Made by a program: the position numbers and the translations under genes. Under the pieces are notes generated by a model. That model saw only the letters and a program-made list of their open reading frames with translations, searched no databases and had not been told where the DNA came from. Shown piece after piece: positions 2,337 to 18,842 of a stretch of 18,842 nt of DNA (position 1 is the stretch's first letter; each line of letters opens with the position of its first letter). Origin of the DNA: Willaertia magna (Eukaryota > Heterolobosea > Eutetramitea > Acrasida > Naegleriidae); the NCBI GenBank assembly GCA_902984215.1, contig CADWAF010001102.1, positions 1 through 18,842 on the forward strand. Direction: 5' to 3'.

Positions 2337-2816
2337 TCTCTTTGTTGCCATGAATAAAACCAATTATTTTTAATTGTAAAGAAAAATTACAATACTTGGG
2401 AGTGAAGTGGTTTGAGTATGATTCTAATTATTCATTTTGAATAAAATCTAGAGCACGAACAATTTCTGTGTCTTTCGTTTTAACCAAGTGCCAAAATCTC
2501 TCCCTCTCTTTAAAATAACGAATGGTTTCTTTAAGCTTTGGTTGAATTGCTTCATCCAATTTCAATAAATTTACCAAATCCAAAGGTGATGATCGTTGTT
2601 TTGAATCTTGCCTTAACATTGATTTGAGAAGTTTAAGTATTGTTTTATCTATTATTGCCAATTTATCACATTTCTGAAAGATTTCTTTCTCATCCTTTGA
2701 CTCCCAAGAATTGCGCCTTTTACCTTTAAGTATTTCAAGAATTACTAAACCAAGAGAATAAACATCACTTTTTGGAGAAACAAGATTATCTATACGTCTC
2801 TCTGGAGCTCGATATC

Positions 2817-2851
2817 CTGCAAAGTAAGATTAAGAAGAAATTATTACTTAC
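2817..2851 (-). other. Spliceosomal intron (35 nt) in the kinase-like gene
   Basis: Read on the minus strand it begins GTAAGTAATAA and ends CTTACTTTGCAG. The upstream exon ends 'TTTG' and the downstream exon begins 'GATATCGAG', so splicing makes a GGA codon and joins 'SFTFG' to 'YRAPE', completing the kinase activation segment. Without splicing the frame hits TAA two codons into the intron. Very short GT-AG introns such as this point to a protist nuclear genome. Confidence 0.9.
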
Positions 2852-3647
2852 CAAAAGTAAAACTCTCACTCTTTGTTTCTTTTTGTGGATCAAATATTAG
2901 ACTAATTTCATAGTCAATTAAAAACCAATGCTCGTCGTATTTTACCATATTTTCTGGTTTTACATCATTATGAATAAAATTTGTTTGTTCTAATGCACAT
3001 AATTGAACAATTAAATCTAAAGTAAAATTAAATACTGAGTTGGCATCTGGAAGGTTTTTTCCATTAGTAGTGAAACAATCAGATAGTGGAATTCCAGCTA
3101 AGGAAATACAATATTGAGGATCATTTGTTATAATATAAAGGGTAGCAAATGGCAATGTTGATGCAATATAATGCTCATTTGTGGATCTTAAATTTGACTT
3201 TACATAAATTGGTGTTTCGTCTAAAAGTAATGCTTTTTTGATTATTTTTCCTTTTGCTACATAACAATACTGTGAATTTTCTTCATAAGTAACAAATATA
3301 TTTCTTGGTACTGGAAAAGACATCCTGAAACACTTAGGTAAATCGGTTTGTTTTTTAGAGGAACTAATCAAACGAGTTTGTAAATATTGTGCTACTAATT
3401 CAATTTTTGGTGTTGACAACGCAATAATTAATTTTGACATTAATTGAATTCTATCATCCCTCTTAAAGTGAGAAAAGGTTCCTAAGTAGTCTAGAGTATA
3501 GTGTAAGGAAATTTTACCAGTTAGATTCTGTTCAATAGAGCAAGACATGCAGTAAGCGTAGCTGTTTTTCGAATCTGTTGTAACTCCAAGTACAGTAATT
3601 AAATTGTGCCAATCTTCAATTTCATCCCTTATTAAATTTCTAACTGT

Positions 3648-3672
3648 TTTTGTTAATGCTAGCCTCATTTCT
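3648..3672. repeat. 25-bp direct repeat, left copy (target-site duplication)
   Basis: Exact copy of 10241-10265. It starts TTTTGTTAATG and ends CCTCATTTCT. The bases on each side differ between the copies. On the minus strand both copies encode 'EMRLALTK' in the kinase frame. Deleting 3673-10265 leaves an uninterrupted frame, as expected of a target-site duplication made by an insertion. Confidence 0.9.
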
Positions 3673-4636
3673 GTTTCAATACTATTAGTACGGGGTACCC
3701 TATATTTAATTATGCACTACCCTATTTAGAGAATTAACATTTAACGTTTAGAATAGAAGAAACAAATAGAGCTCGATATAATATTGAAGAAAATTAAGCC
3801 TTTATTTGTTAAAGGTTAAAAGTTTGTAATTGCATGAATGTAAGGATGTAGGTGTAAATTTTTACTTTGTCAAATTGGTCACTTATTATTCTTTTATATG
3901 CTTCTTTTAATTCTTATTAATTTTTCTTTTGAGCAATATAATATTGGATCAAATAAGTAGCTATTATCATCATTTATTGCCTAAAAGAACGTTTGTTGGT
4001 GATTTAAAATTTTATTAAGGATATATTGCAGTTTTTCAATGGAATTAGATATTTTATTTATTTTACAATTGGGATTGTTGAATGCTAATGTTTCTATTGT
4101 AAAAAGTAACTTCAAGATGTATTCTTGTTCCAATATTCGTTATGAAAGAAAGTAGGAGGAAGTAGGAGTTAGAAATAAAGTAGTGATTGTAGTGATTGCT
4201 GTATTTAAATTTTTAAAAAACAACAATAAAATAGTTTGTTATGATCAAACAACTTTTCATAAGGTACCACATTCTTGTAAATAGAAGAATTATCTATATC
4301 CACTTCATAACTAAATATAATAGTTTTACAAATATATATAATAACTATATTTAAAGGTAATTATTACATGATAATCACATGATTGTCACATAATCATAAC
4401 ATAATTGTCACATGATAATAACATGAGTATGACTTTACATAACCGTCACATGATTATCACATGAGAATCACATGAGAATCACATGAGAATCACATGATCA
4501 CCACAAGACAATCACATGACTATCACAAGACAATCACGTGAATACATCTAGAAATTTGGGAATTACAAGTTATTACCATTTCTAAAGTTTGAAATCCACA
4601 TTATAATGTTAATTAAACCTTTAAATTCTCTAATAA
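3673..4636. other. Non-coding left arm of the insertion
   Basis: No ORF or recognisable gene on either strand. It contains two similar short motifs (TACCCTATATTTA at about 3706 and CTACCCTATTTA at about 3718) near the outer edge, and the 11-bp tandem array at 4368-4537. The composition is mixed and less extreme than in the neighbouring AT-rich genes. It may hold terminal recognition sequence of the element. Confidence 0.5.
4368..4537 (+). repeat. 11-bp tandem repeat array (15 units)
   Basis: Fifteen consecutive units with consensus ATGAnAATCAC; one is 16 bp, the others are 11 bp. Three units in the middle (ATGAGAATCAC) are identical. The unit junctions create CACATG and, at the end, CACGTG hexamers. 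The period is close to one turn of the DNA helix. There is no ORF through it. Confidence 0.9.
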
Positions 4637-5007
4637 ATAACCCATCACAAGATTTACAAACTAATACAAAAGAACTTAGTAAAACTACTAGTTGTAATTC
4701 TGTTTTAATGAGATTGATTGGAAATAATTTATAAAATTTTTTAAAAAATTAAAAAAAAATGGATTCATTTATGATGAAATTTTTTCCTATTTCTAATAAC
4801 CAATAACAATAAAATTATTAGCACGAATAATTTTTTGTTATTTATTAGATTATTTAAGTATAAATAGTTAAAATTATTAGCACGAATAGTTTTAATTATT
4901 ATTTATTATACTTAAATTAGGTTTTTTTAAGGGTTGGTACAAATTTAAAAGTTTGTTATCGGATTGGTTTAGTTTTTGTCTTTAATAAACTTTGAATTAT
5001 TGTTGTA
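4637..5007 (+). repeat. 371-bp dispersed repeat, copy 1
   Basis: Aligns without gaps to 15341-15711 with about 8 differences (about 98% identical). It begins ATAACCCATCACAAG and ends TTATTGTTGTA. It holds two hairpins in tandem with the same loop, AGCACG: arms 4802-4819 with 4826-4842, and an imperfect larger hairpin 4854-4915 with outer arms TTAAGTATA/TATACTTAA. No coding capacity. At its right edge it abuts an inverted piece of cadherin-like sequence. Confidence 0.9.
4802..4915. other. Twin stem-loops with identical AGCACG loops
   Basis: First stem: AATAACAATAAAATTATT pairs with AATAATTTTTTGTTATT (one bulge) around AGCACG at 4820-4825. Second: AGTTAAAATTATT and AATAGTTTTAATT around AGCACG at 4879-4884, with outer 9-bp perfect arms. 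Both are kept in the second copy (15506-15619). They could be protein-recognition hairpins or a folded transcript end. Confidence 0.7.
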
Positions 5008-5109
5008 AACAATAGTTTGAAGAGTAATTGCATTAGTTGTCTTTAAAACTACATTACCGTTAGTTACTTGAACTAAATTCTTGCAATAAGTAAATCACCA
5101 TCTTCATTT
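5003..5109 (-). repeat. Inverted 107-bp cadherin-like segment
   Basis: The reverse complement of 15951-16057 with 4 mismatches, all transitions, and no gaps. The minus strand reads a cadherin-like stretch ('VQVTNSN...VLKTTNAITLQ'). At 5110 the sequence switches to forward-oriented cadherin-like coding, so 5109/5110 is an inversion breakpoint. The first five bases overlap the end of the 371-bp repeat. Confidence 0.85.
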
Positions 5110-6348
5110 AAGAGATATTACATTTACTTATAAAACAACTAATGGCGCAAAATCTTCAACAATCTCTGCAACAGCAACAATTACAATTATTAATACTGAT
5201 AAACCAGTCGCAAATTCATTATCTCAAATTGTACATTGGAGAACTTTTTAAGCTGGAATTACTTATAATGTTTACAATGCAGCTAAAGATTCTAATGGTG
5301 ATATTATTATTTTAACTTTAGTTAGTAATGGTATAGATATCAAAACAATTGCATTCCAACAAACAACAACTGGAGATCATGTTTGTACATACAAACTTTC
5401 TGATAGTAAAGAAGAAACACAATCAACTGTTACAACAACTATTACAAATGCTAAACCAACTGCTTTAAATCTTAATTATGATTTCCACTTTACTATGTTA
5501 GAAACTGGTTTAGAAATTGATTTAACTGAAGTAATTGCAGATACAGATGTTTTTGATATTGAATTGAATTGAAAATCAACTGTTTTAATCACTAAGAAAC
5601 AAGTACAAAAACTTACTGGTACACCAATTCAAGCATACAAATCCAATAAATCTTTACAAGATGAAGAATTAGTTAAATTATTGAAGACATCATTCAAAAT
5701 TGAAAAGAAGGATGCATTTTAATTGATAAAACTCTTAATATCTATATTACAAATGCAGCTCCAGTTGCAAATTCAGATACTGTTACAAAATTATGGAGAG
5801 AAATTTCATTTACTATTTCTCTATTATATAATAATGTTGATTCAAATTCTGATTCAATTATAATTACCTCAGCTTCAGGTTCAAAAGATATCTTGACTAT
5901 TTTTCAAGATAAGAAGACTATCGCATATAACTATGGTGGAACCAAAAGTGTTTTCTCTGAAATAATTACTTATACCATTATAGATGGTCCAGCAACTTCC
6001 ACTTCAACTATCACAATCGATTTCATTAATACTGCCCCAACAACTCAAGATTTATAAATGGAATTCTGCAATTGCTGTTACTAGTTTATTAAGCAAATGT
6101 ATTGATTCAAACAATGATCCATTAACCTTCCAAGGAGTTGATTCTGCAAGTAAAGGAACAGTTACTGTTACTAACGCTCAATTAGATGATACTAGTTACA
6201 CCCCAAGTACTTTAATTGCTTATACAAGTAAAATGGTGTATGGTCAATAACAGACTCATTCAATTATAAATGTTCTGATGGTTTAGTAACATCTACAGGA
6301 ACAGTTTCAGTAACAATTACTAATACTCCTCCAACATGTGTAAACAAG
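5110..6348 (+). pseudogene. Cadherin-like/Ig-like tandem-repeat protein, decayed copy A
   Basis: Successive stretches read as extracellular beta-sandwich repeats: 'ATITIINTDKPVANS', 'VTTTITNAKPTALN', 'LNIYITNAAPVANSD', 'TITIDFINTAPTTQD', 'TVSVTITNTPPTC'. The recurring 'I-T-N-x-x-P-x-A-N-S' linker every 80-100 residues is the pattern of cadherin-like or bacterial-Ig-like repeats of large secreted or surface proteins. The frame is broken by an in-frame TAA near 5248, a TGA near 5570 and frameshifts near 5720 and 6050. No start, signal peptide or membrane anchor is present. Positions 5573-6348 duplicate 17782-18564. It ends abruptly at 'gtaaacaag', where AT-rich unrelated sequence begins. Confidence 0.75.
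5573..6348 (+). repeat. Duplicated cadherin-like block, copy A
   Basis: Matches 17782-18564 in the same orientation; the 7-bp length difference is a deletion near 6230 ('AGTAAAATGGTG' against 'AGTAAACCATTAAATGGC' in the other copy). Differences are mostly C/T and G/A transitions. Both copies carry the same two frameshifts. Confidence 0.9.
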
Positions 6349-7216
6349 GCGCATTTTTTTTTTGTAATTTAGATAATAATCTTTTTAATAAATTTTTAAA
6401 TCGTTCAAAAAAAAGTAAAACCTAATTTATCTATTTTTTAGTTTCGTTTTTTTATAAGAAAGTTTATAGTGCTATATTTTTTTATTTACAAAAACTTTTT
6501 GAAGTTGGATAACATTTTTTAAAAAATTTTCTTTAACTAACAATGAAAAACAAAGATTTTTTCAAACAATACATAACTTTTAAAATACTAATAGTTATAA
6601 ACTCAAATTGCAAATGAGCATTATATTAAAGGTTAACATGAAAATGGTTTAAAAAGTTTATTAATATATTTAATAACAAAAAAGAGAAGGCTAGCAATTG
6701 TTAATAATTTTATAAATTTTGAATTATTAGTGATTTTATAAAGTTTGAATTATTAGTAATTTTGTAAACATTGAATCATCAATGATTTTGTAAACTTTGA
6801 ATCACCGGTGATTTTTGTAAACTTTGAATCACCGGTGATTTTGTAAACTTTGAATCATCAATGATTTTGTAAAAAAGTTAAAAATAAATAATTATTTTAA
6901 TATTTATACCTAAAAAATAAAAATTTAATATACTTTTTCTTTAAAAGTTACAATATAAAATTACATTATTGAACAAATAAGTTTATTCATAAGTATTAAG
7001 AAAGAAAAGTAACAACAAAGTATAGTAAAGTTTACAAATTAATAAAAATGTTTTAAAAGATATTTTTTATAAATTTACAACCTAACAAAATCAAAATATA
7101 TTCTTAATAAAGACCATATCTCTAATTTTTATATTCATCTTTTGAATATAAAATCAACTTACATTAAATAACAAATATTGTTATTACAAAAAAATTATTA
7201 TATATCTCCCTTGAAT
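6349..7216. other. AT-rich non-coding spacer upstream of the 964-codon gene
   Basis: No ORF of note. It holds homopolymer-rich sequence, the 26-bp palindromic tandem array at 6721-6877, and, closer to the gene, TATA-like A/T runs that could be its promoter. It presumably carries the regulatory region of the gene at 7217. Confidence 0.5.
6721..6877. repeat. 26-bp tandem repeat with a palindromic core (6 units)
   Basis: Six head-to-tail units, each GAAT-core-ATT(T)TGTAAACTTT with small changes; the fourth is 27 bp. Units 4 and 5 hold the perfect palindrome AATCACCGGTGATT; units 3 and 6 have AATCATCAATGATT, unit 2 AATTATTAGTAATT and unit 1 AATTATTAGTGATT. The two arms change together, so near-dyad symmetry is kept while the sequence drifts. 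It lies about 340 bp upstream of the gene at 7217. Confidence 0.9.
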
Positions 7217-10111
7217 ATGACCAAAAAAATCAAAAAACAAATAGAAAATAAATTACAAAATTCAAAACAAAATAAATCACGCAAGATAATAAGTAATGAT
7301 GAATTTAATTATGAAACAAATAGTTGTTTGTCTGTTAAAGAAATTAATAATAACAATAAATTTAATTTATCATTTACCAAAGAAATTATAGAAATTTCTT
7401 CTGATGAAGAATGTAGTAGCAATAATAGTAGTAGTAACAGTAGTAGCAGTAGCAGCAGTAGTAGCAATAGTAGCAGTAGTAGTAAATTACAATTTGTTAA
7501 AGAAAAAAAGTTATGTGGTTCAAGAACTGGAAGAGGTGGATTCTGTAGACATCCATACAATAGCTGTCCTTTCCACAAAAAAAAGGAAATTCCTGATGAC
7601 ATAAATGAAATATCTACTGATGAAGAATCTCTAACAACAAATTCAACACTTTGTGGAAAACTAACCGCTATTGGTGATCTTTGTAGAAACAAAGCAGGCC
7701 ACTATTGTGTTCATGATAGAAAGTATATTATTTGTGGAGCAAAAAATAAGTATGGTAAACCTTGTCTACAAACACAAGGTAAATGTCCTTATCATAACAC
7801 TTTCGAAGAAAGAATAGAATATATTAAATTAAATTTAAAAGAAGAAGACAAAGTAAATTTAAATTTTATCAAAGATTTAAAACTTAATTATGAAGACATT
7901 AAAAATAATAAAATTAAATTCTCAGATTTTAAAGGACAAACAGCCAAAGATAAAAAGGCTGCTTGTATTAGTTATTGTTATTTTATGAGTAAAGGAGAAG
8001 TTAAAAATAATCAATTAGGATTATATTTTAATACATCTATTAGTACTATTGGTCAAATAAAATCAAGTAAGAAAAAAGAAATGGATCAATATTTATTATA
8101 TTTTTATAACACTTCCAAGAAAAATACAAATGTGGAAGAGTTTTCAAATAATTCTACAATTAAATGTCATACTTGTGATATATTTACTAACAATTTTCGT
8201 ATTATTAATATTGATAATTATATAAAAATTAAAAATACATTTACTAATAAAGTTACTATTATTGGTAAAAAAGTTTGTATGAATTGTTTTAAAAAAGCAA
8301 AGAAAATTAAAATAGAAAATACTTTTACTAAACAAATAATTAATCAACACAAATATAATAATTTTGATGATTATTTAAATAATTTAAATAATTACTTTAC
8401 CAATGAAAAAAAAGAATCACAATTTATTTTACAAAATATTTATGAATTTATAGCTTCAAAAAATGAAGGAGTTACTATGAATGATATATATAAAAAATTT
8501 GATGTAAAAATATTGGAAAGTCTATTATTAGATTGTCAAAATATTGTTAAAGACATTAATGTAGAAAATGAAATAGTATATAAATATAATGACAATAATG
8601 CATTATATATCCCAAATATAATTGAGGACCAGTTAAAATATTTTAAAGAATTACAAATACAATTTAATTCAGAATTATTTACTTTTGATTATAATAATTA
8701 TACAAATTTCGATATACTAAAATCTAAAATTGATAGTAATATTAAAAATTATATTGAAAATAAAAGTAATAACAATAATAATGATGTTACATTTTCAAGA
8801 AATATGATAAATACTTTTTTAATAGAAAATTATAAAAAGTTATTTCATAAAGAAGCACCATTTATAGATAAAATGACTAAAAAGAATAAGATTATATATA
8901 CTATTGTTAATAATTATAAACAAGATTTTCAAGATACATCTATAATTAGATTATGGGTTTCAGTTAATAAAATATTTGATAAAAATTTTGAATTTCCAAG
9001 TAACAATTTTAGAGATGATATTTATAATATTATTTATTCAAAAAACAAATATTCATTATATTTTACACAAGACTTACCAACAGGATATTTTAATATTAAA
9101 TTTTATAATAATAAAGATGTCCAAGGAAAAACAAAAGAAAAAATTAAACAAAAAAAAAGGACTCAAAATTATAATATTATAAATAACAGAGCAAAATTAT
9201 TAACTGATTACAGAATTGGTAGTACTAAAATAAGAAATTACCATTGTATTAACGAACTGGAAAATAATTTAAATGATAAATTAAATTTTTATACTGATAA
9301 CAATATTTATAAATCAAACCATACAATTTTTGATATGGACCATATTCCTTATTTAAATTCACAAAGAACAACTCAAGTTGAAAAGAAATATAGAGATGAG
9401 TTTTGTGTTTCTTTTTGTGGATTTCATATAAATCAGTTACTGAAATTATTTTCAATGGAGGATAGATTATTATTAAGAATATTAAAAGAAAATAATTTTA
9501 ATATCAAAAATAACAATTACTACAAAATTAATTATAGACAATTAAAAGATAATATTTCTAAAGAAAAGTTAAATGAATGGATTAGTGATATTCAACAAAA
9601 AATAAATGTAATTTCTAAAAAAGTCAGAAACCAAGTACTTAGAAGACATACTAATGACGAATTACAATATTTATTTAATAACGTACTTATTACCTTTAAA
9701 AAAACAAAAGGAATACAATTAGTATTATGGAAAGACAAAAGTAAGGAACATGAAAATTTAGTATGGGATCATTCACATGAGAATTCTTGGAAATTATTTA
9801 ATGTATTTACAAAGTATTTGAACTTAAGTGTTGAAAATGTGAATAGTGATGATGACATGTATAGGGTTTTTATGGATATTAGAAATAAATATATTGGTAA
9901 TGGTAAACTCCTTCAGTATTTAATGCATAGTCATATTATGTATTATGGAAGGGGTTTTATAGATGACGATTTCAATAAAAGTTTGGGAAATTATGAAACA
10001 TTGTTAAGATTAGGTTGGGATGATAAAAAAATATGGCAAGAAATAACAAGCATGCTAATTGGAGACCCTATTTTAGACAACGATGGTTATTTAATACCTT
10101 ATTTTGCATAA
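7217..10111 (+). CDS. 964-aa protein with three C-x9-C-x6/7-C-x1/2-H knuckles; candidate mobility protein of the insertion
   Basis: The start is ATG 7217 ('MTKKIKKQIENKLQ'); the frame extends upstream only to a TTG at 7178. The N-terminus is basic, followed by an acidic Ser/Asn tract (about residues 57-91). Three Cys/His modules follow: C100-C110-C117-H120, C146-C156-C164-H166 and C173-C183-C190-H193, each with 'CG-x-x-x-x-x-G-x-x-C'. They look like small zinc knuckles. A further C317xxC320...C354xxC357 pair may bind another zinc. The C-terminal half (about 500-964) is N/K-rich with 'DMDHIPY' at 706-712 and 'WDHSHENSW' at 850-858, possibly catalytic acidic/His clusters. No reverse transcriptase, DDE, tyrosine recombinase or polymerase motif was recognised. 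It is intronless, ends TAA-TAG, and is the only intact gene in the insertion, so a role in mobility is inferred from context alone. It could also be a passenger or giant-virus-like gene. Confidence 0.8.
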   Translation: MTKKIKKQIENKLQNSKQNKSRKIISNDEFNYETNSCLSVKEINNNNKFNLSFTKEIIEISSDEECSSNNSSSNSSSSSSSSSNSSSSSKLQFVKEKKLCGSRTGRGGFCRHPYNSCPFHKKKEIPDDINEISTDEESLTTNSTLCGKLTAIGDLCRNKAGHYCVHDRKYIICGAKNKYGKPCLQTQGKCPYHNTFEERIEYIKLNLKEEDKVNLNFIKDLKLNYEDIKNNKIKFSDFKGQTAKDKKAACISYCYFMSKGEVKNNQLGLYFNTSISTIGQIKSSKKKEMDQYLLYFYNTSKKNTNVEEFSNNSTIKCHTCDIFTNNFRIINIDNYIKIKNTFTNKVTIIGKKVCMNCFKKAKKIKIENTFTKQIINQHKYNNFDDYLNNLNNYFTNEKKESQFILQNIYEFIASKNEGVTMNDIYKKFDVKILESLLLDCQNIVKDINVENEIVYKYNDNNALYIPNIIEDQLKYFKELQIQFNSELFTFDYNNYTNFDILKSKIDSNIKNYIENKSNNNNNDVTFSRNMINTFLIENYKKLFHKEAPFIDKMTKKNKIIYTIVNNYKQDFQDTSIIRLWVSVNKIFDKNFEFPSNNFRDDIYNIIYSKNKYSLYFTQDLPTGYFNIKFYNNKDVQGKTKEKIKQKKRTQNYNIINNRAKLLTDYRIGSTKIRNYHCINELENNLNDKLNFYTDNNIYKSNHTIFDMDHIPYLNSQRTTQVEKKYRDEFCVSFCGFHINQLLKLFSMEDRLLLRILKENNFNIKNNNYYKINYRQLKDNISKEKLNEWISDIQQKINVISKKVRNQVLRRHTNDELQYLFNNVLITFKKTKGIQLVLWKDKSKEHENLVWDHSHENSWKLFNVFTKYLNLSVENVNSDDDMYRVFMDIRNKYIGNGKLLQYLMHSHIMYYGRGFIDDDFNKSLGNYETLLRLGWDDKKIWQEITSMLIGDPILDNDGYLIPYFA
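7414..7487 (+). repeat. AGT/AGC trinucleotide microsatellite encoding Ser
   Basis: A run of AGT, AGC and AAT codons giving a Ser/Asn tract inside the 964-codon gene. The unbroken reverse frame (poly-Leu) is only a shadow of it. Confidence 0.85.
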
Positions 10112-10125
10112 TAGTTTGAGTGAAA

Positions 10126-10160
10126 ACATATTGTGTATTGTGGTGTGGACATATTGTGTA
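10126..10160 (+). repeat. Pair of 12-bp direct repeats near the right end of the insertion
   Basis: ACATATTGTGTA occurs at 10126-10137 and 10149-10160, 15 and 27 bases past the stop codon region, about 80-110 bp from the right edge of the insertion. It may be subterminal recognition sequence; the left arm shows no counterpart. Confidence 0.5.
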
Positions 10161-10240
10161 CTAGAATGTTCTGATTAAAATATTTTGTGGGGAGAAATTG
10201 GACAATCTGAGGCGCAGGTGGATATAAACGTAATACTTCA

Positions 10241-10265
10241 TTTTGTTAATGCTAGCCTCATTTCT
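10241..10265. repeat. 25-bp direct repeat, right copy (target-site duplication)
   Basis: Identical to 3648-3672. On the minus strand the kinase frame enters it as 'LVLEMRLALTK' and then meets TGA at once in the inserted sequence, so the 5' half alone would make a truncated protein of about 294 residues. Confidence 0.9.
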
Positions 10266-10460
10266 AGTACTAAGTTAATAAAATCTTTATGATCTGTATG
10301 AAAATTATATTGATCAGATGAATCTTCTCTAATTAATCTCATGCAACTTGTTCCTCCATAATCAACTACAATAAAATCATCAGGATGGAAATCGGGTATT
10401 GCTGCGTGAAAATTTTGAGCTATAGATCCATAACTAATGTATGACTTAATAGAACAATTA

Positions 10461-10503
10461 CTATTCAAATTAAAGAGTAAAATCAAAAGTTCAAGTTACT
10501 TAC
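10461..10503 (-). other. Spliceosomal intron (43 nt) in the kinase-like gene
   Basis: On the minus strand it begins GTAAGTAACTTG and ends TTTAATTTGAATAG. Splicing forms a GCT codon and gives 'EGNANCSIKSY' across the junction. The 5' site GTAAGT is the same as in the other intron of this gene. Confidence 0.85.
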
Positions 10504-11159
10504 GCATTACCTTCACACCCTTTAAAATTACCAATGAAATTAAATAAGGGAGCAAACATATTTCTTGTTAATTCCTGTTCTGTAGCTTTTCCAATAGTTT
10601 GTCTTATAAAAGGAGAGATAGCTTGTTTCCATAAACATTCATCACTATTCTTAATTTTCATCTCCTTACCAATTTCAAGTATAAAAGAATTGAAATCAAT
10701 TTTACCAGAATCATAGTCATGCAATAATTGTTCAATATTCACCCCCTTAGAGTGTTCAAAAAGAGGAATTAAATTATTTCCTAAAGTTATCCCAAGCGCG
10801 TTAATCATGTATATAAAAGCTGTCTTTACTTTACAATGCTCAAGATGTGTTTGCCATAATTGTGGAATAGGAGTCTTTGCTATTGATTCAATCCAACCTT
10901 TAAGATCTGGTTGTTTTTCCGTTAGGTTATTAATTTCTGTGTCTGTTAAATCATCGACTCGTCTTTTTGTCTTGTCTTGATCTACAAATGCACTTAAAAA
11001 ATCTAGCACAGTACATTTAATAACCTCTTTTTCAATATTCTTGTTTTTTCCTTGTTTTTTCTTCTTCGTTTCTGGTTTATTCAAATTATTATTTATTTCT
11101 TTGTTTGTTCTTTTTCCCAAAATAGATCCAAGTACGGATACAAGATTTCCAAACCACAT

Positions 11160-11361
11160 TTTTTAATTCACTACAAACTTTCAGCATTAAAAACCTACAA
11201 AAACCAAAAAATATACAAATGAGGCACAAAAATATAAAAATGATTTGGATAACAAAAAAAAAGAAAAGAGATTACAATGAAATAAATAAAAATAGATGCA
11301 GTGAATTTAGAATAAATTATTGATTTATTGTAATTAATAATATTAAATAAAAAAAACAAAT
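11160..11361. promoter_or_regulatory. Divergent intergenic region
   Basis: 202 bp between the start of the kinase-like gene (minus strand) and the start of the AT-rich cluster (plus strand). It is A-rich on the plus strand with A9 and A8 runs and TATTAAATA just before the ATG at 11362. Promoters for both directions are expected here but no defined element can be picked out. Confidence 0.4.
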
Positions 11362-12177
11362 ATGAATAATATTAATAATTATAAAGAAATAATTTTAGAA
11401 GAAGGGGACTGTAATTTATTTAATAATATTACAAAAGAAAATAATAAATTTATTTTTAAAGATGAAACAAATAATAATATTGTAAACAATTTTTTTATTC
11501 CTGTTAAATTTACTATTTTAATTGACCAAAGTAATACATTTTTTAAAGATAATAACTGGCAATTTATTAATAATAGTAATTTATATATAAATAATGAAAA
11601 AACAACAACAGAAATTAAAGAAAATTATAAAATAAAAGACAATAATTATAATTTTATTTTAGAACATAATCAATTTATATTTGAACCAAAATATAAAAAT
11701 TTTAATGAAGTACCAAAAGAAAAATAAATTGTTTATGGATATATGTGGAAATGGTTCAGTAAAAGTGCAAGATGTATTATAAATCAACAATTACAATTTA
11801 GAACCTTAAATAATATTAAACATTTAACAATAAGTAATTGTGATCCACAAGTATTTTATTTAGGATTATGTGATAACAAAGGGGGAAAATTTTATCAATG
11901 GTATCAAGATGTTTTATGGAATGGTATTAAACAAAGAATAAATTGTATACAATTTAGATTTAATAATTGTATTCCAGCATTAGATAATTTTAATAATTGG
12001 TCAGAAAATGAAATTAATCATGAATATAATAGCATCGATAATGTTAAATATATAACAAAACATAAAATAAATATTGATTATATTTCATTAACATGTAATA
12101 TAGAAACAGGAGAAGTTTGGTCAAGTTTTAAATTTAAAAAACAAATAGATTTTGGTAATGGTTATGAAAAATTGTAA
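11362..12177 (+). pseudogene. AT-rich gene of unknown function split by one in-frame TAA
   Basis: Two ORFs lie in the same frame: 11362-11727 (121 codons, 'MNNINNYKEIILEEGDCNLF') and 11743-12177 ('MWKWFSKSARCIINQQ'). Only the TAA at 11725-11727 and five codons separate them, so they read as one 271-codon gene with a nonsense codon. Alternatively the second part is translated by itself from its ATG. The second part is rich in aromatic residues and Cys ('FYQWYQDVLWNGIKQRINC', 'YISLTCNIETGEVW') and is probably a folded domain; no family was recognised. It is intronless with the same extreme AT bias as the following reading frames, 26 bp downstream, and may belong to the same element. Confidence 0.55.
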
Positions 12178-12203
12178 TTTTTTGTAAATTAATTTAAATA
12201 AAA

Positions 12204-12929
12204 ATGCCTTTAAAAAAAAATATTACTTTTCATCTTCCGAATGAAAAATTAAAAAGAGGAAGACCAAAAAATTTAAAGAATAATAATTTAAATAAAAAAA
12301 ATAAATATACAAATAATTTATCAAATAATAATTTAAATAATTTATCAAATAATAATTTAAATAATTTATCAAGTAATAATTTAAATAATTTATCAAATAA
12401 TAATTTAAATAATTTATCAAATAATAATTTAAATAATTTATCAAATAATAATTTAAATAATTTACAAAACAATAATTTAAATAATTTATCAAATAATAAT
12501 TTAAATAATTTACAAAATAATAATTTAAATAATTTACAAAATAATAATTTATATAATTTATTAAATTTTATTTTACAAAATTTAAATAATATAGAAAATA
12601 ATAATTTAATTTTATTATTAAATTTTATTATTTATAGTTTAGAAAATAATGATTTAAATAATTTATCAAATAATAACTTCAATAATGTATTAAATAATTT
12701 AAATGACTTACAAAATAATAATTTAAATAATTTACAAAATAATAATTTAAATAATTTATCAAATAATAATTTAAATAATTTACAAAATAATAATTTAAAT
12801 AATTTACAAAATAATAATATAAATAATTTACAAAATAATAATTTAAATAATTTACAAAACAATAATGAAGAACAATTAAAAATAATTTTATTTTTTATAA
12901 TTATAAAGAAACAGGTGATAAAATTATAA
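12204..12929 (+). CDS. AT-hook protein with octapeptide repeats; likely first segment of the broken transposase-like gene
   Basis: ATG at 12204. Residues 17-23 read 'KRGRPKN', an AT-hook core (RGRP flanked by basic residues) that binds the minor groove of AT-rich DNA. It is followed by ten 8-residue repeats (S/Q)NNNLNNL, a short hydrophobic interruption, and a second block of the same repeats. The last residues ('IILFFIIIKKQVIKL') look out of frame: another frame is open from 12869 and continues 'FYNYKETGDKIIKIERKNNY' for 300 codons with no ATG for its first 430 bases. A -1 shift at the T6 run (12891-12896) joins the two. The protein therefore probably continues into the next segment. Confidence 0.55.
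   Translation: MPLKKNITFHLPNEKLKRGRPKNLKNNNLNKKNKYTNNLSNNNLNNLSNNNLNNLSSNNLNNLSNNNLNNLSNNNLNNLSNNNLNNLQNNNLNNLSNNNLNNLQNNNLNNLQNNNLYNLLNFILQNLNNIENNNLILLLNFIIYSLENNDLNNLSNNNFNNVLNNLNDLQNNNLNNLQNNNLNNLSNNNLNNLQNNNLNNLQNNNINNLQNNNLNNLQNNNEEQLKIILFFIIIKKQVIKL
12321..12560 (+). repeat. 24-bp coding minisatellite, block 1 (10 units)
   Basis: Ten units of TCAAATAATAATTTAAAT plus AATTTA, each encoding SNNNLNNL or QNNNLNNL. Ser/Gln alternation comes from TCA against CAA at the unit start. The long minus-strand ORFs over it are shadows of the repeat. Confidence 0.9.
12709..12867 (+). repeat. 24-bp coding minisatellite, block 2
   Basis: About six and a half further units of the same 24-bp repeat, mostly QNNNLNNL, after a 150-bp interruption holding degenerate units. 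The array ends just before the frame-change region at about 12869-12900. Confidence 0.85.
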
Positions 12930-13795
12930 AAATTGAACGTAAAAATAATTATTTTATTTCACTTTGTAACACTAATAAATTTCATTTTACAAAAAATACA
13001 GAAGATGATTTTAAAGAAATTTATAATTATAAAATAAATAATAAAAATATAAATTTTTTAAATATTAATAAAAAATCAATAAATACTTTAATTGAAATAC
13101 CTTTTAAAAATAATAATTTATCTTATCAACAATGTAATTATTATAAAAATAAATTAGGAAAATTATTTTTTGGAATTGAATTATTATTATTTAATAATGG
13201 TATTACAAATTTTTATAATTTAATAAATTTATTTATAGATTATTTTACAAATAATTTTATTGAAATTATTCAAAAAAGAAATGATTACAAAGAAATAATT
13301 ATGAAATTAAATAATTTTACAATAAATAAAGATAATATTAATGATTTTAAAGATGCTATTAATTTTTATTATAATAATAATAACATACAACATAACAATA
13401 ATAATGAAGACTCAAATGATAATTTAATAGAAGAAGAAATTGATAATAATGAAAATGAATATTTAGAATATAATGATGGATCATTAGCGATAAATATTAA
13501 TGAAAATAATTTACAAAATAATTTACAAAACAATTCACAAAATAAATCACAAAATAATTTACAAAATAATTTACAAAACAATTCACAAAATAATTTACAA
13601 AATAATTTACAAAATAATTTACAAAATAATTCACAAAACAATTCACAAAATAATTTACAAAATAATATAATTATTAATAACGAAAATGAAAATAATGAAT
13701 GGGAAGAATATGAAAAAGAAGAAAATGAATATTTACAAAATAAAAATAAAAATAAAAAACAAAAAAAACAAATAACAAAAAAACAAAAAAAATAG
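12869..13795 (+). CDS. Middle segment of the broken transposase-like gene (no own start)
   Basis: This frame opens after a TGA at 12866-12868 and stays open to TAG at 13793-13795. The first ATG is at 13301, far inside, so it is read as a continuation of the preceding frame and not as a separate gene. Residues before 13301 form a sensible folded stretch ('KIERKNNYFISLCNTNKFHF', 'LGKLFFGIELLLFNNG'). After that comes an acidic N-rich part, a 12-bp repeat coding (L/S)QNN and a Lys/Gln-rich end. The stop is preceded by CAA AAA AAA, so the slippery heptamer A AAA AAA sits directly before TAG. A -1 shift there enters the next frame. No domain is recognised in this segment. Confidence 0.5.
   Translation, partial: RTIKNNFIFYNYKETGDKIIKIERKNNYFISLCNTNKFHFTKNTEDDFKEIYNYKINNKNINFLNINKKSINTLIEIPFKNNNLSYQQCNYYKNKLGKLFFGIELLLFNNGITNFYNLINLFIDYFTNNFIEIIQKRNDYKEIIMKLNNFTINKDNINDFKDAINFYYNNNNIQHNNNNEDSNDNLIEEEIDNNENEYLEYNDGSLAININENNLQNNLQNNSQNKSQNNLQNNLQNNSQNNLQNNLQNNLQNNSQNNSQNNLQNNIIINNENENNEWEEYEKEENEYLQNKNKNKKQKKQITKKQKK
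13509..13664 (+). repeat. 12-bp coding repeat (LQNN/SQNN)
   Basis: About 13 units of TTACAAAATAAT or TCACAAAACAAT, encoding LQNN and SQNN. It resembles the second half of the 24-bp unit upstream (QNNNL), so both probably expanded from similar seeds. Confidence 0.85.
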
Positions 13796-15363
13796 AAATA
13801 AATTCAAAAATAATTAAAAATTTTATTGCTAAAGAAAAAGCTAATATGAGTGATGAAGAATATGAAAAATTTATTACAACAAATGAAACTGAAGAAACAT
13901 GTAGATCACAAATTAGTTTATTTCGTGTTATTATTAATATTTTTTTATTTTTAAAAGTTTTTATTTTTAATTATAAAGAAGACATAGTTTATGTAGAATT
14001 AAAAGAAGTAATAGAACAAATTTTAAAATATCATATAATATGGACAACAAAACAAATAAATAAATCAGTTAAAAGAAAAAATAATTTAATTAATGAAGAT
14101 AAATATTTTACAGGAATTAAAATATTTAAATTAAATTTAGATTCATCAAATAATAAAACAACATTCAATATATCATGTTTAAATTTAAAATGTTTTGGTA
14201 ATAATCAATCTAGAAAAACTGTTTTTACTTTAGCAATTTGGAAAGGTGGTGAAGAAATGTTTAAAAAAATTGCATATATTTATAAAGAAAGTATTGAAAA
14301 TATTAAATTAAATGGAATAGAAATTAATGGTATTGTTTTTAAAATAGATTTTATTTTAACAACAGATTTATTATTTTTAATGAAAATTTCAAATTTAACA
14401 TTTAAAGAAATGTGCCCTTATTGTAAAACACATTCAACAATATGTGATCATAAACATTTAATTAGAAGTAAAGATGATTTGGGCTGTTTATTAGGAATAG
14501 ATTCATCAAAAATAATTATTTGTTTACTACATATGAAAAAAAGAATAACAGAACGTTTATTAATTGATTCAATTATTATTAGTAAAAATTCTACTAAAAT
14601 AATAAAATTGATTCAAAAATTACCAGAATTAAAAAAATTTACTTTACGTGAAATAAAAATTAAAAATCAAATTTATTATAAATGTTATTTAACAGGTAAA
14701 CAATGTAATATTTTATTAAAGAATTTACATATTTTTCGTAATAATATACCAAATATATATTGTACTATATTTAGAAAATTTAGAAAAGTTTTAAGAATTT
14801 TAGAATTGGAAGAAATAGATGATACAAATTATAAAAATTTAATAAATTATTTAAAAGAATTAAAAATTATATATTTAAAATTATATAATGACGAACATAA
14901 TAAAAGTTGGTATATGCATATTTTATTACATCATGTTGTAGATATAATAAAAATATATGGTAATTTAAAATGTTATGAAACACAAAAATTTGAATCAGCA
15001 CATATAGAAGAATTAGAAAGAATGGAAAAAACGTCTAAAAATGGTGGAAAATTAAATTATATAAACAAATTATTACCTAATTTAAAAGAAAAAATATTAT
15101 TACAATTTTTATTTTCAAAACTTAGATTACTTTTTTTATGTTGTAAATATAATTATGATTTTGATAAATGTTATATTTATGATACAGATAAATTATTACA
15201 ATTTTTAAATAAACCATATCCAAAGTTTCCTGATGATAAAACTGATTTAAATGCATTAGTCATGTTAAATAATAATATAAATTATGAAAATATTTGTTTT
15301 AATTGTAGTAAACATTTTACTCATATAAATTTATCTCAATATAACCCGTCACAAGATTTATAA
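13756..15363 (+). CDS. Transposase-like protein, C-terminal segment
   Basis: The frame is open from 13756; the first ATG, at 13846, gives 505 residues ending in TAA at 15361-15363. Features by position from that Met: D168 and D174 in 'KIDFILTTDLLFLMKI', a C190xxC193...C200xH202xH204 cluster, then 'HILLHHVVDIIKIYGNL' (358-374), 'YETQKFESAH' (377-386), and a terminal C484xxC487xxHxxH. An acidic residue before a CPYC-type zinc cluster, and later a His-rich helix followed by 'G-x-L-x-x-x-x-x-x-x-F-E-x-x-H', is a layout I associate with uncharacterised eukaryotic DDE-type transposases; the catalytic assignment is inference. The last six residues are encoded inside the 371-bp repeat. Joined by two -1 shifts to the preceding segments it would make a protein of about 1,053 residues with an N-terminal AT-hook. 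Confidence 0.5.
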   Translation, partial: KTKKTNNKKTKKIEINSKIIKNFIAKEKANMSDEEYEKFITTNETEETCRSQISLFRVIINIFLFLKVFIFNYKEDIVYVELKEVIEQILKYHIIWTTKQINKSVKRKNNLINEDKYFTGIKIFKLNLDSSNNKTTFNISCLNLKCFGNNQSRKTVFTLAIWKGGEEMFKKIAYIYKESIENIKLNGIEINGIVFKIDFILTTDLLFLMKISNLTFKEMCPYCKTHSTICDHKHLIRSKDDLGCLLGIDSSKIIICLLHMKKRITERLLIDSIIISKNSTKIIKLIQKLPELKKFTLREIKIKNQIYYKCYLTGKQCNILLKNLHIFRNNIPNIYCTIFRKFRKVLRILELEEIDDTNYKNLINYLKELKIIYLKLYNDEHNKSWYMHILLHHVVDIIKIYGNLKCYETQKFESAHIEELERMEKTSKNGGKLNYINKLLPNLKEKILLQFLFSKLRLLFLCCKYNYDFDKCYIYDTDKLLQFLNKPYPKFPDDKTDLNALVMLNNNINYENICFNCSKHFTHINLSQYNPSQDL

Positions 15364-15711
15364 ACTAATACTATAGAACTTAATAAAACTACTAGTTGTA
15401 ATTCTGTTTTAATGAGATCGATTGGAAATAATTTATAAAATTTTTTAAAAAATAAAAAAAAAATGGATTCATTTATGATGAAATTTTTTCCTATTTCTAA
15501 TAACCAATAACAATAAAATTATTAGCACGAATAATTTTTTGTTATTTATTAGATTATTTAAGTATAAATAGTTAAAATTATTAGCACGAATAGTTTTAAT
15601 TATTATTTATTATACTTAAATTAGGTTTTTTTAAGGGTTGGTACAAATTTAAAAGTTTGTTATCGGATTAGTTTAGTTTTTGTCTTTAATAAACTTTGAA
15701 TTATTGTTGTA
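15341..15711 (+). repeat. 371-bp dispersed repeat, copy 2
   Basis: Gap-free match to 4637-5007, offset 10,704 bp. Its first 23 bases contain the stop of the transposase-like frame, so here the repeat is the 3' flank of that gene. The twin AGCACG hairpins are intact. To the right it meets a different sequence (ACATAAAAAACAAAGG) from that next to copy 1, so 15711 is a true repeat edge. Confidence 0.9.
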
Positions 15712-16310
15712 CATAAAAAACAAAGGTATTTATAAACATTTAATTAATTGGATTCTTTGAACAGTAGAAATATTGATATTTCTAATGTTTAATGCTGTAA
15801 CTAACTTCCTAATATCATTATAAATAATCCTGCAACTGCAATATCATCTATTTTAATTACCGCAACAAATAATGTTGTTCCTCAACCTAAAGTCTACACA
15901 AACAACTAGTACATTAATTCTATTCTATTATTTACTTCAGCATCACCAAGAAATGAAGATAGTGATTTACTTGTTGCAAGAATTTAGTTCAAGTAACTAA
16001 CAGTAATGTAGTTTTAAAGACAACTAATGCAATTACTCTTCAAATTATTGTTTACAAACAATGCAAATTACTTAGATACTGATACTTTCACTTTTAATAT
16101 TATTGATGGTTTAAATATTGCAACAATTAAATTCACTATTTACAATAACAAACCAGTTGTTAAACCATCAGCTGAAACATTCCACAGGAAACAAGCTAAA
16201 GATGTAGTCACAAGAAACTCAATTACATTGACTGACAGTGATAAAGAAGATACTTTCTCTTTAGTCAAAAGTTCACACCTTGTTTTTACTGTTGACACAT
16301 AAACATAAGA
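15712..16310 (+). pseudogene. Decayed cadherin-like sequence, left of the PI4-kinase fragment
   Basis: Pieces in changing frames read as the same repeat type as copy A: 'VQVTNSN...VLKTTNAITL' (about 15988-16045), then after a frameshift 'NNANYLDTDTFTFNIIDGLN' (about 16057-16116) and 'IKFTIYNNKPVVKPSAETFH'. TAA at 16300-16302 interrupts it. Positions 15951-16057 reappear inverted at 5003-5109. The first 150 bp are too degraded to read. Confidence 0.65.
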
Positions 16311-17130
16311 TAATTACAAAATCTGGAAATCAAATAACCTTAGAGTTGTAAGAGCAACAAGCTTACAATTTATTATTTTAATTATGAAAGAATTCCCTTC
16401 TTTGTATTGGAGTACAAGATGTTTATTTTCTTTATTGGAAATCCTATCTGCTTTATATCAAGTAATTTACATGTTTTCTAAAGAATCTATAGAAATTGCA
16501 ATCTTTTGTTGGGATTGTATTGCAGTTGCAAGAAACGATGAATATATTATTCCATTAATGACAGAAATATCTAATGCTTGGAAATATACTATTAAGAAAC
16601 GTTTAGGATTATTTACTGGAATAGAAGAAGAAGAAATTGAATTGGCAACATCTTCTGCACCAACCGTGACTGAAAGTGAATGAGTAGATGAAACCTTCTC
16701 TTATTGTATGTGGATTAACTTTCTCGGAGAAAGATTCCAAGCATTTGTTCTTAGTAACGCCTTTATTTCAATTTATTTAGATTTATTGTTGAATGCAAGT
16801 GAAGATATTCAATTACTTTCTAAATCTCATATCACCTTAGATACAAAATTCCATTTGTTATCATTAGCATTACAAATTTATAGAATTATTATTGACAATA
16901 GTTACAGATTTAGTTACACTGGTTCAACATCTAATGTTAACTCATTGGTTAATATGGCAGTTATTTTATAACATCGTACCTTCTCTATTTTACTTCATTG
17001 GTTTACTTTACATCCAATATGGTATGATCCAAAGAGTAATCATTTAGTTCAAGAAGATATTAAGGTATTACAAGACATTAAGAAAAGACTTGAAAGAGAA
17101 CAAAAAGAATTAAATAGATATCAACCAGTA
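16311..17130 (+). pseudogene. Fragment of phosphatidylinositol 4-kinase type III alpha (Stt4/PI4KA-like), helical region
   Basis: Three blocks in one frame match, from memory of the family, the helical region N-terminal to the kinase domain: 'FPSLYWSTRCLFSLLEILS' (family FPHLLWS...LDIL), then 'SIEIAIFCWDCIAVARNDEY', 'IPLMTEISNAWKYTIKKRLG', 'LFTG' (family ETALACWEWL...VPFMREMAGAWHMTV...GLF), then 'MWINFLGERFQAFVLSN' (family IWIDFLVQRFE), 'FHLLSLALQIYR' and 'WYDP' (family WYNP). The order is conserved but stretches between blocks are missing, and TGA (16681-16683) and TAA (16969-16971) interrupt the frame. The lipid-kinase domain is absent. In cells the enzyme makes PI4P at the plasma membrane; this fragment cannot. 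It passes in frame into cadherin-like sequence at about 17130 ('ATTDIFTYKIINGQ'). Confidence 0.75.
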
Positions 17131-18842
17131 GCTACTACAGATATCTTTACTTACAAAATCATTAATGGCCAAACAACTTCTGAACTTTATACAATTAGTA
17201 TTCACATTGGTAATACAGCCACAGTATCAAGGTATAAAATCTTGTAATATTTTAATTATTACAAAATGTACCTAAAACTGCTGGTTTGACACTTTAACTG
17301 TTTTAACATTAATTGATACTTTAATTTCTTATACAATTTCTGATGGTCGCGAAGAATACTGACGTCAAGTATTGGCTGGACAAGCTATTGATTTAACTTT
17401 AAGATTAACTGATGCAAATAGTGATATTTATTGTTATCATTGTCTCAGTAACTACTCAAAGTACTGCTGCTACTGTTTTATAGAATTCCGGAACAAAAGT
17501 TGTTAATTATAAGACTAAACAAGCTTAGAAAAGTACTGATTCATTTACTGTAACATTTACTGATAGATAGATACAACAAACAGCTGTATTTACAGTTCAA
17601 GTAACAAATAGTATTCCTGTTATTAAAACAATTACAAAGACAATCAAACATACTAAAGCATTAAATTATGCTTTAACCATTGTTGATTCAAATGATTCAA
17701 GCATTGTACTAACTGATGTAGATTCATCATTATTAACTATTTTTTCCATCGGTATTCCAGTAAAAGGTTTCGTAACAACTTAAATCAACTATTTTAATCA
17801 CTAAGAAACATGTATAAAAACTTACAAGTACACCAATTCAAGCATACAAATCCGATAAATCTTTACAAGATGAAGAATTAGTTAAATTATTAAAGATATC
17901 ATTGAAAATTGAAAAGAAGGAAGCATTTTAATTGATAAAACTCTTAATATCTATATTACAAATGCAGCTCCAGTTGCAAATTCAGATACTGTTACAAAAT
18001 TATGGAGAGAAACTTCATTTACTATTTCTCTATTATATAATGATGTTGATTCAAATTCTGATTCAATTATAATTACCTCAGTTTCAAGTTCAAAAAGTAT
18101 CTTGACTATTTCTCAAGATAAGAAGACTATCGCATATAACTATGGTGAAACTAAAGATGTTTTCTCTGAAATAATTACTTATACCATTATAGATGGTCCA
18201 GCAACTTTCACTTCAACTATCACAATCGATTTCATTAATACTACCCCAACAACTCAAGATTTATAAATGTAATTCTGCAGTTGTTGTTACTGATTTATTA
18301 AGCAAATATATTGATTCAAACTATGATTCATTAATCTTCCAAGGAGTTGATTCTGCAAGTAAAGGAACAGTTACTGTTACTAATGCTCAATTAGATGATA
18401 CTAGTTACACCCCAAGTACTTTAATTGCTTATACAAGTAAACCATTAAATGGCATATGGTCAATAACAGACTCATTCAATTATAAATGTTCTGATAGTTT
18501 AGTAACATCTACAGAAACAGTTTCAGTAACAATTACTAATACTCCTCCAACATGTGTAAACAAGACAAAGATTGTCACAAGAGATTATAACAATCCAAAT
18601 GTTCAAATTACCTCAACTGAATTATTAATCGGAACAACAAATACAAACTCAGATTCCCTTTCCGTTAGTAATATAGCTTAGTAGCAGGTTTTGATAGTTA
18701 ATTTTCAGTTATCCTACAATGTTCAAACGTTATTTTCTTTTATAGTCTATCCTACTCTAGTGTTCAAATATTTACCTACACCGTCACTGATAAACAACTT
18801 ACTGCAACCTGTAATTACGTAGTTAGTAGAATAATGGTGCAA
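17131..18842 (+). pseudogene. Decayed cadherin-like repeats, copy B, running off the window
   Basis: Repeat-like stretches continue in shifting frames: 'TDIFTYKIINGQTTSELYTI', 'STDSFTVTFTDR', 'AVFTVQVTNSIPVIKTI', then the block duplicated at 5573-6348, and finally 'SVQIFTYTVTDKQLTATCNY' at the edge. Stops and frameshifts occur throughout (for example TAG near 17527 and 17567, TAA near 17781 and 17813). The longest readable piece is 18253-18681, ending in TAG. The original gene must have been very long, with many 80-100-residue beta-sandwich repeats, and probably encoded a surface adhesion protein. Confidence 0.7.
17782..18564 (+). repeat. Duplicated cadherin-like block, copy B
   Basis: Partner of 5573-6348. 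It lacks the 7-bp deletion of copy A but has a CAA-to-TAA change near 17813 where copy A keeps CAA. Both copies share frameshifts near 'GCATTTTAATTGAT' and 'GATTTATAAATG', so they decayed in part before they were duplicated. Confidence 0.9.

Follow-up and report, generated by a model that had tools for sequence, protein, structure and literature searches.

A composite 6.6-kb insertion with a 25-bp target duplication in a kinase-like gene of Willaertia magna

What kind of event leaves 6.6 kb of DNA between two copies of the same 25 bp in the middle of a gene? The question is raised by one locus of the free-living amoeba Willaertia magna, contained in a window (the whole stretch of DNA analysed here) of 18,842 nucleotides. 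An earlier note on this DNA had suggested that the 6.6 kb may be one large mobile element of an undescribed type. The insertion described here is large and composite and has a long, perfect target duplication, a feature that by itself does not define a transposon.

The split gene and its duplication

The direct repeat bracketing the insert (Table 1) is exact over 25 bp and could not be extended, the neighbouring bases differing on both sides. Among 100 random windows from a Markov-1 model (positions 12199-13800 left out), no exact repeat exceeded 21 bp and the longest averaged 16.3 bp, and the 25-mer occurs at these two sites only in the 19.24-Mb assembly of the window (hereafter, its own assembly), even when up to 3 mismatches are allowed. 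Direct comparison thus bore out the exact repeat with differing flanks as well as the duplication of 25 bp of target at insertion, both of which the earlier note had claimed.

When the flanks were joined, with one copy of the repeat kept and two introns removed (10461-10503, 43 nt, and 2817-2851, 35 nt, both with GT...AG ends), we recovered a minus-strand gene of three exons running from 11159 down to 2428. Its product of 686 amino acids (2,061 nt including the stop codon) agrees with the in-frame 2,061 coding nucleotides announced for the site. The repeat codes for residues 285-292 of this joined protein, and a Pfam Pkinase match covers residues 505-639 (E 3.6e-17). The kinase motifs from which a recent insertion had been deduced are indeed present; they are weak evidence of recency, because they belong to the C-terminal portion of the protein, which lies left of the insert, and because a methionine within the repeat could start a downstream kinase frame of 401 codons.

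No empty site was found. The search of the own assembly returned only the window's four exon pieces and, at 24-37% identity, other kinases, and a protein search with the joined kinase as query gave none at E <= 1e-10 among the 7,998 candidates that were scored. The own assembly comprises 19.24 Mb in 894 contigs and may hold about half of the genome, a published genome of W. magna C2c Maky having 36.6 Mb and 24.8% GC (PMC6892926); absences from the own assembly are weak evidence for this reason. For strain T5(S)44, too, a W. magna genome built from long and short reads has been published (PMC11702301).

Comparison of the insert ends confirmed the reported lack of terminal inverted repeats, and the edges carry no poly(A) or poly(T) run. 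The first 82 bp and the last 129 bp of the insert had no match elsewhere in the own assembly, in which the only match of the left end was an internal scrap at C342 and the right end had none. The same assembly yielded no second copy of the whole insert and, in its 19.24 Mb, no further insertion bounded by the same ends (3673 and 10240), which the earlier note had proposed to look for.

Table 1. Coordinates of the split gene, the duplication and the pieces of the insert, by position in the window
Feature	Position	Strand	Basis
Kinase-like gene, 3' part: remainder of exon 2, intron 2817-2851 and exon 3; includes the kinase domain	2428..3647	-	Joined frame, Pfam
Left copy of the 25-bp target duplication	3648..3672	.	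Repeat comparison, assembly search
Insert, 6,568 bp	3673..10240	.	Bracketed by the repeat copies
Piece matching C342, 95% over 55 columns	3755..3808	-	Local re-alignment
Piece matching C96, 95%	3820..3960	+	Local re-alignment
41-bp piece matching C193 and C159, 93%	4025..4065	+	Local re-alignment
11-bp/22-bp tandem repeat, no match found elsewhere	4366..4541	.	
Second repeated element, last 371 bp; 98% identical to window 15341-15711, its first part 85% identical to C522	4637..5007	+	
Surface-protein-like gene scrap, inverted; 96% to window 15951-16062	4999..5109	-	
Surface-protein-like gene scrap; C70, 87%	5107..5579	+	
Putative methionine-aminopeptidase/PA2G4-like gene, coding-end piece, 144 bp; C10, 97%	5573..5716	+	
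Surface-protein-like gene scrap; C70, 93%	5707..6350	+	Local re-alignment
Piece matching C611, 93%	6351..6480	+	Local re-alignment
26-bp tandem repeat	6707..6873	.	
Upstream region common to the window and C370 copies of TE1	6898..7216	+	
TE1 orphan gene, 964 aa, intact	7217..10111	+	Open reading frame
129 bp between TE1 stop codon and right repeat copy	10112..10240	.	No match in the assembly
Right copy of the 25-bp target duplication	10241..10265	.	Repeat comparison, assembly search
Kinase-like gene, 5' part: exon 1, intron 10461-10503 and the beginning of exon 2	10266..11159	-	Joined reading frame

Composition of the insert

The left half of the insert is a patchwork. Searched against the own assembly, the stretch 3600-7171 had 19 matches in addition to the self-match, of which three lie in the window's right flank, and after local re-alignment 3755-6480 consisted of pieces that abut, with some gaps, and have their best matches elsewhere at 87-98%. 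No match in the own assembly was obtained for 3673-3754, 3809-3819, 3961-4024 and 4066-4636, nor for 6481 to about 6897 and 10112-10240. Four of the five joins between adjacent matches show overlaps (9, 3, 7 and 10 nt) and the fifth shows none, which is possible microhomology in an AT-rich genome. The gene on C10 that matches one of the pieces appears, from our reading of its translation, to be methionine-aminopeptidase/PA2G4-like.

The join between the C10 and C70 pieces is found a second time, since 5573-6348, which includes it, recurs in the right flank at 17782-18564 with 94% identity; part of the patchwork thus appears to be older than its presence in the insert. This flank holds a degenerate surface-protein-like gene (15829-18842) related to copies on C70 and C140, and the 144-bp piece of the PA2G4-like gene lies inside it at 17782-17925.

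A second repeated element with several frames occupies 11347-15711. One frame starts with a KRGRPK AT-hook-like motif and has long NNLxNN repeats, and tandem repeats of 24 bp (12279-12866) and 12 bp (13503-13666) fall within Asn/Leu/Gln-rich frames; the three frames of the element that were scanned had no Pfam match. The final 371 bp of the element, which contain two palindrome-like stretches around AGCACGA, are found again in the insert at 4637-5007. We assign that piece to the end of the second element because, on C522, a frame related to the open reading frame 13756-15363 runs on into sequence like 4637-5007.

The TE1 gene and its boundaries

The right half of the insert, from about 6898 to 10111, contains a gene that we call TE1, for which, as for the insertion itself, a literature search gave no description. 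The frame is uninterrupted over 979 codons (7172-10111), the 964 residues being counted from the methionine at 7217. The earlier note had overlooked this orphan gene.

We found at least 21 TE1-like stretches on at least 17 contigs, the window included. Most contain stops (4 of 21 have none internally), and the stops counted for the C370 copy fall outside its open frame of 937 codons. The stretches on C283 and C491, which share 861 bp at 99.8%, may be one locus. Between the window and C370, dS was 0.57 and dN 0.30, and this lower dN points to some constraint on the protein. A 917-residue protein of the public W. magna set (P0001) occurs letter for letter within a C370 frame of the own assembly, which assigns the window to W. 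magna or a very near relative; P0001 was the only relative of TE1 among the matches listed from protein databases (7,990 and 7,996 candidates scored), and neither the 964-residue protein nor the joined kinase was among the matches listed from that public set. Scanning viral contigs with P0001 gave two stretches that fit a pattern, neither of which encodes a relative.

Pfam and fold searches recognised no known domain in TE1 with confidence. There was no transposase or reverse-transcriptase family in the Pfam matches of nine TE1 sequences, RVT_connect (E 0.059) falling short of its cut-off, and the fold searches recognised no catalytic domain, a result with which a divergent DDE transposase is compatible. 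By our own reading of the translation the N-terminal third contains Cys/His-rich motifs, and a winged-helix-like domain was predicted near residues 398-460. As a repeated and partly constrained orphan protein family, TE1 is the part of this locus most worth following; if it moves DNA, it would be a new class of transposition protein.

Closely related TE1 copies are alike in their upstream sequence and diverge directly past the stop codon. Those on C587 and C527, 90% alike, cease to match 3 bp past it, the match between the window and C370 ends at 10106, five bases before the end of TE1, and the match of the C671 copy ends at the same place against both of these. Alignment scores of the 129-bp 3' flanks were 21 for window/C370 (shuffle maximum 24) and 17 for C587/C527 (maximum 35), against 124 (maximum 46) and 223 (maximum 48), respectively, for the 129-bp 5' flanks. 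The copies on C747 and C36, whose match to C547 breaks off about 130-150 bp ahead of its stop, are neutral on this point. Because the shared sequence stops at the stop codon, TE1 would have a shared right boundary 129 bp inside the insert edge, a placement based on few copy comparisons, and the edges of the insert would not be those of TE1, since close copies differ right after this codon. Together with the mosaic make-up and the edges that do not recur, this boundary leaves the suggestion of one undescribed 6.6-kb mobile element unsupported.

At the edges of the TE1 core in the window, direct repeats did not exceed 6 bp and there were no inverted repeats of 8 bp or more. A search for duplications at the copies on C587, C527, C724, C547 and C370, whose left ends are unplaced, gave only AT-rich matches of at most 14 bp. 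On C587, 24 bp separate the end of TE1 from a 217-bp piece that is 100% identical to a gene on C67, probably aldehyde-dehydrogenase-like from our reading; beyond this piece there is one 71% match and no close one. Host scraps thus lie beside TE1 at two loci, the insert and C587. The right flank of the C370 copy has two 70% matches on C459.

Possible origins of the insertion

Three known kinds of element fit the insert poorly. A DNA transposon with terminal inverted repeats is not indicated by the insert ends, which have none. Non-LTR retrotransposons make target duplications of variable, sometimes long, length and resemble our insert in this respect, but no reverse-transcriptase domain is recognisable in TE1 and the edges lack the poly(A) or poly(T) run. 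Helitrons carry Rep and helicase domains and are not known to duplicate their target, whereas neither Rep (HUH) nor helicase is recognisable in TE1 with Pfam and the insert has its 25-bp duplication. What Helitrons and other gene-capturing transposons have in common with this locus, according to the part of PMC4778049 available, is the presence of host-gene scraps beside a multi-copy gene with variable 3' neighbours.

We give about an even chance to the insert being a composite block of DNA captured at a break whose ends were offset by 25 nt. The break would have opened exon 2 of the kinase-like gene, with an offset of about 25 nt between its ends; filling in of the overhangs would have created the duplication, and 6.6 kb of DNA from elsewhere would have been joined into the gap. 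This block would have brought together host-gene scraps, the end of the second element, a copy of TE1 plus the region upstream of it, and the last 129 bp, and may have been either ready-made or assembled during the repair. Capture at a break is consistent with the ectopic origins of the pieces, the direct duplication of the target and the edges that do not recur in what may be about half of the genome, with the lack of a second copy of the whole insert in the own assembly, with the divergence of close TE1 copies past the stop codon, with an insert without terminal inverted repeats and without a Pfam transposase or reverse-transcriptase family, and with the captured gene piece 24 bp past the TE1 end on C587. 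No donor block for the insert was found in the own assembly.

Fill-in of protruding break ends produced small tandem duplications in experiments (PMC8355091, in part), and section 4.3 of PMC7407515 describes, in rice, insertions of 10-1000 bp, some from ectopic donors, after asymmetric nicks. Judged from these portions of the two papers, the locus resembles rice patch-mediated repair and break-end tandem duplications in combining a target duplication with ectopic DNA, element structure being unneeded; it differs from the rice insertions in its size, 6.6 kb, and in carrying a whole repeated gene. Against capture at a break, a transposase, too, would leave a perfect duplication of 25 bp with no target bases lost, and the multiple copies of TE1, its dN below dS and the host DNA beside it at two loci fit a role of this protein.

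Such a role is assumed in the main alternative, which we consider a tentative possibility: TE1 would be a transposition protein, and a TE1 element with host and repeat DNA on both sides would have been inserted by a cut with a 25-bp stagger. Besides the repetition of TE1, the constraint on it and the captured host DNA adjoining it, the Cys/His-rich motifs and the predicted winged-helix-like domain argue for this, as does the ability of the Helitron transposase to carry neighbouring DNA by read-through (stated in the available part of PMC4778049). However, shared outer edges are absent from the own assembly, the five other TE1 copies examined (left ends unplaced) show no comparable duplication, and no catalytic domain is recognised. 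It seems doubtful to us that TE1 serves as transposition protein for a eukaryotic class of element not yet described and so far seen in Willaertia only, one without terminal inverted repeats, with its right end at the TE1 stop codon, with target duplications of about 25 bp and with frequent capture of host-gene fragments.

Stepwise nesting, in which a smaller insertion would have made the 25-bp duplication and TE1, the second element and the host scraps would have entered later, is unlikely in our opinion. The unequal identities of the pieces to their best matches would suit it, as would the right flank of the window, a similar patchwork that lacks the insertion. The joined kinase frame, which has no stop, argues against it: with an AT-biased nonsense fraction of 0.061, a neutral change of 3% would be expected to leave 3.8 stops, with a probability of 0.022 for none at all; the figures become 1.5 and 0.22 if only the 285 N-terminal codons are free of selection. 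Set against the 2-13% by which the pieces diverge from their best matches, the stop-free kinase frame favours, without proving, an insertion younger than its patchwork.

A misassembly in which the insert was wrongly joined into the kinase gene is very improbable, because, although the site is known from one contig with no independent copy in the own assembly, a wrong join alone would not place the same 25 bp at both edges with the gene in frame.

Some minor features complete the description. At positions 1-741 of the window, an open-ended frame encodes leucine-rich repeats (LRR_Zer-1, E 8.4e-8). At L062 (C547:5500-8684), two frames of 592 and 258 residues separated by one stop (2-2554) precede a TE1 relative that is oriented as they are; they have no Pfam match above the cut-off and are possibly the second gene of a longer TE1-type element. 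At L013 (C671:4737-8420), C-terminal and N-terminal TE1 fragments adjoin in opposite orientation, as a rearranged copy.
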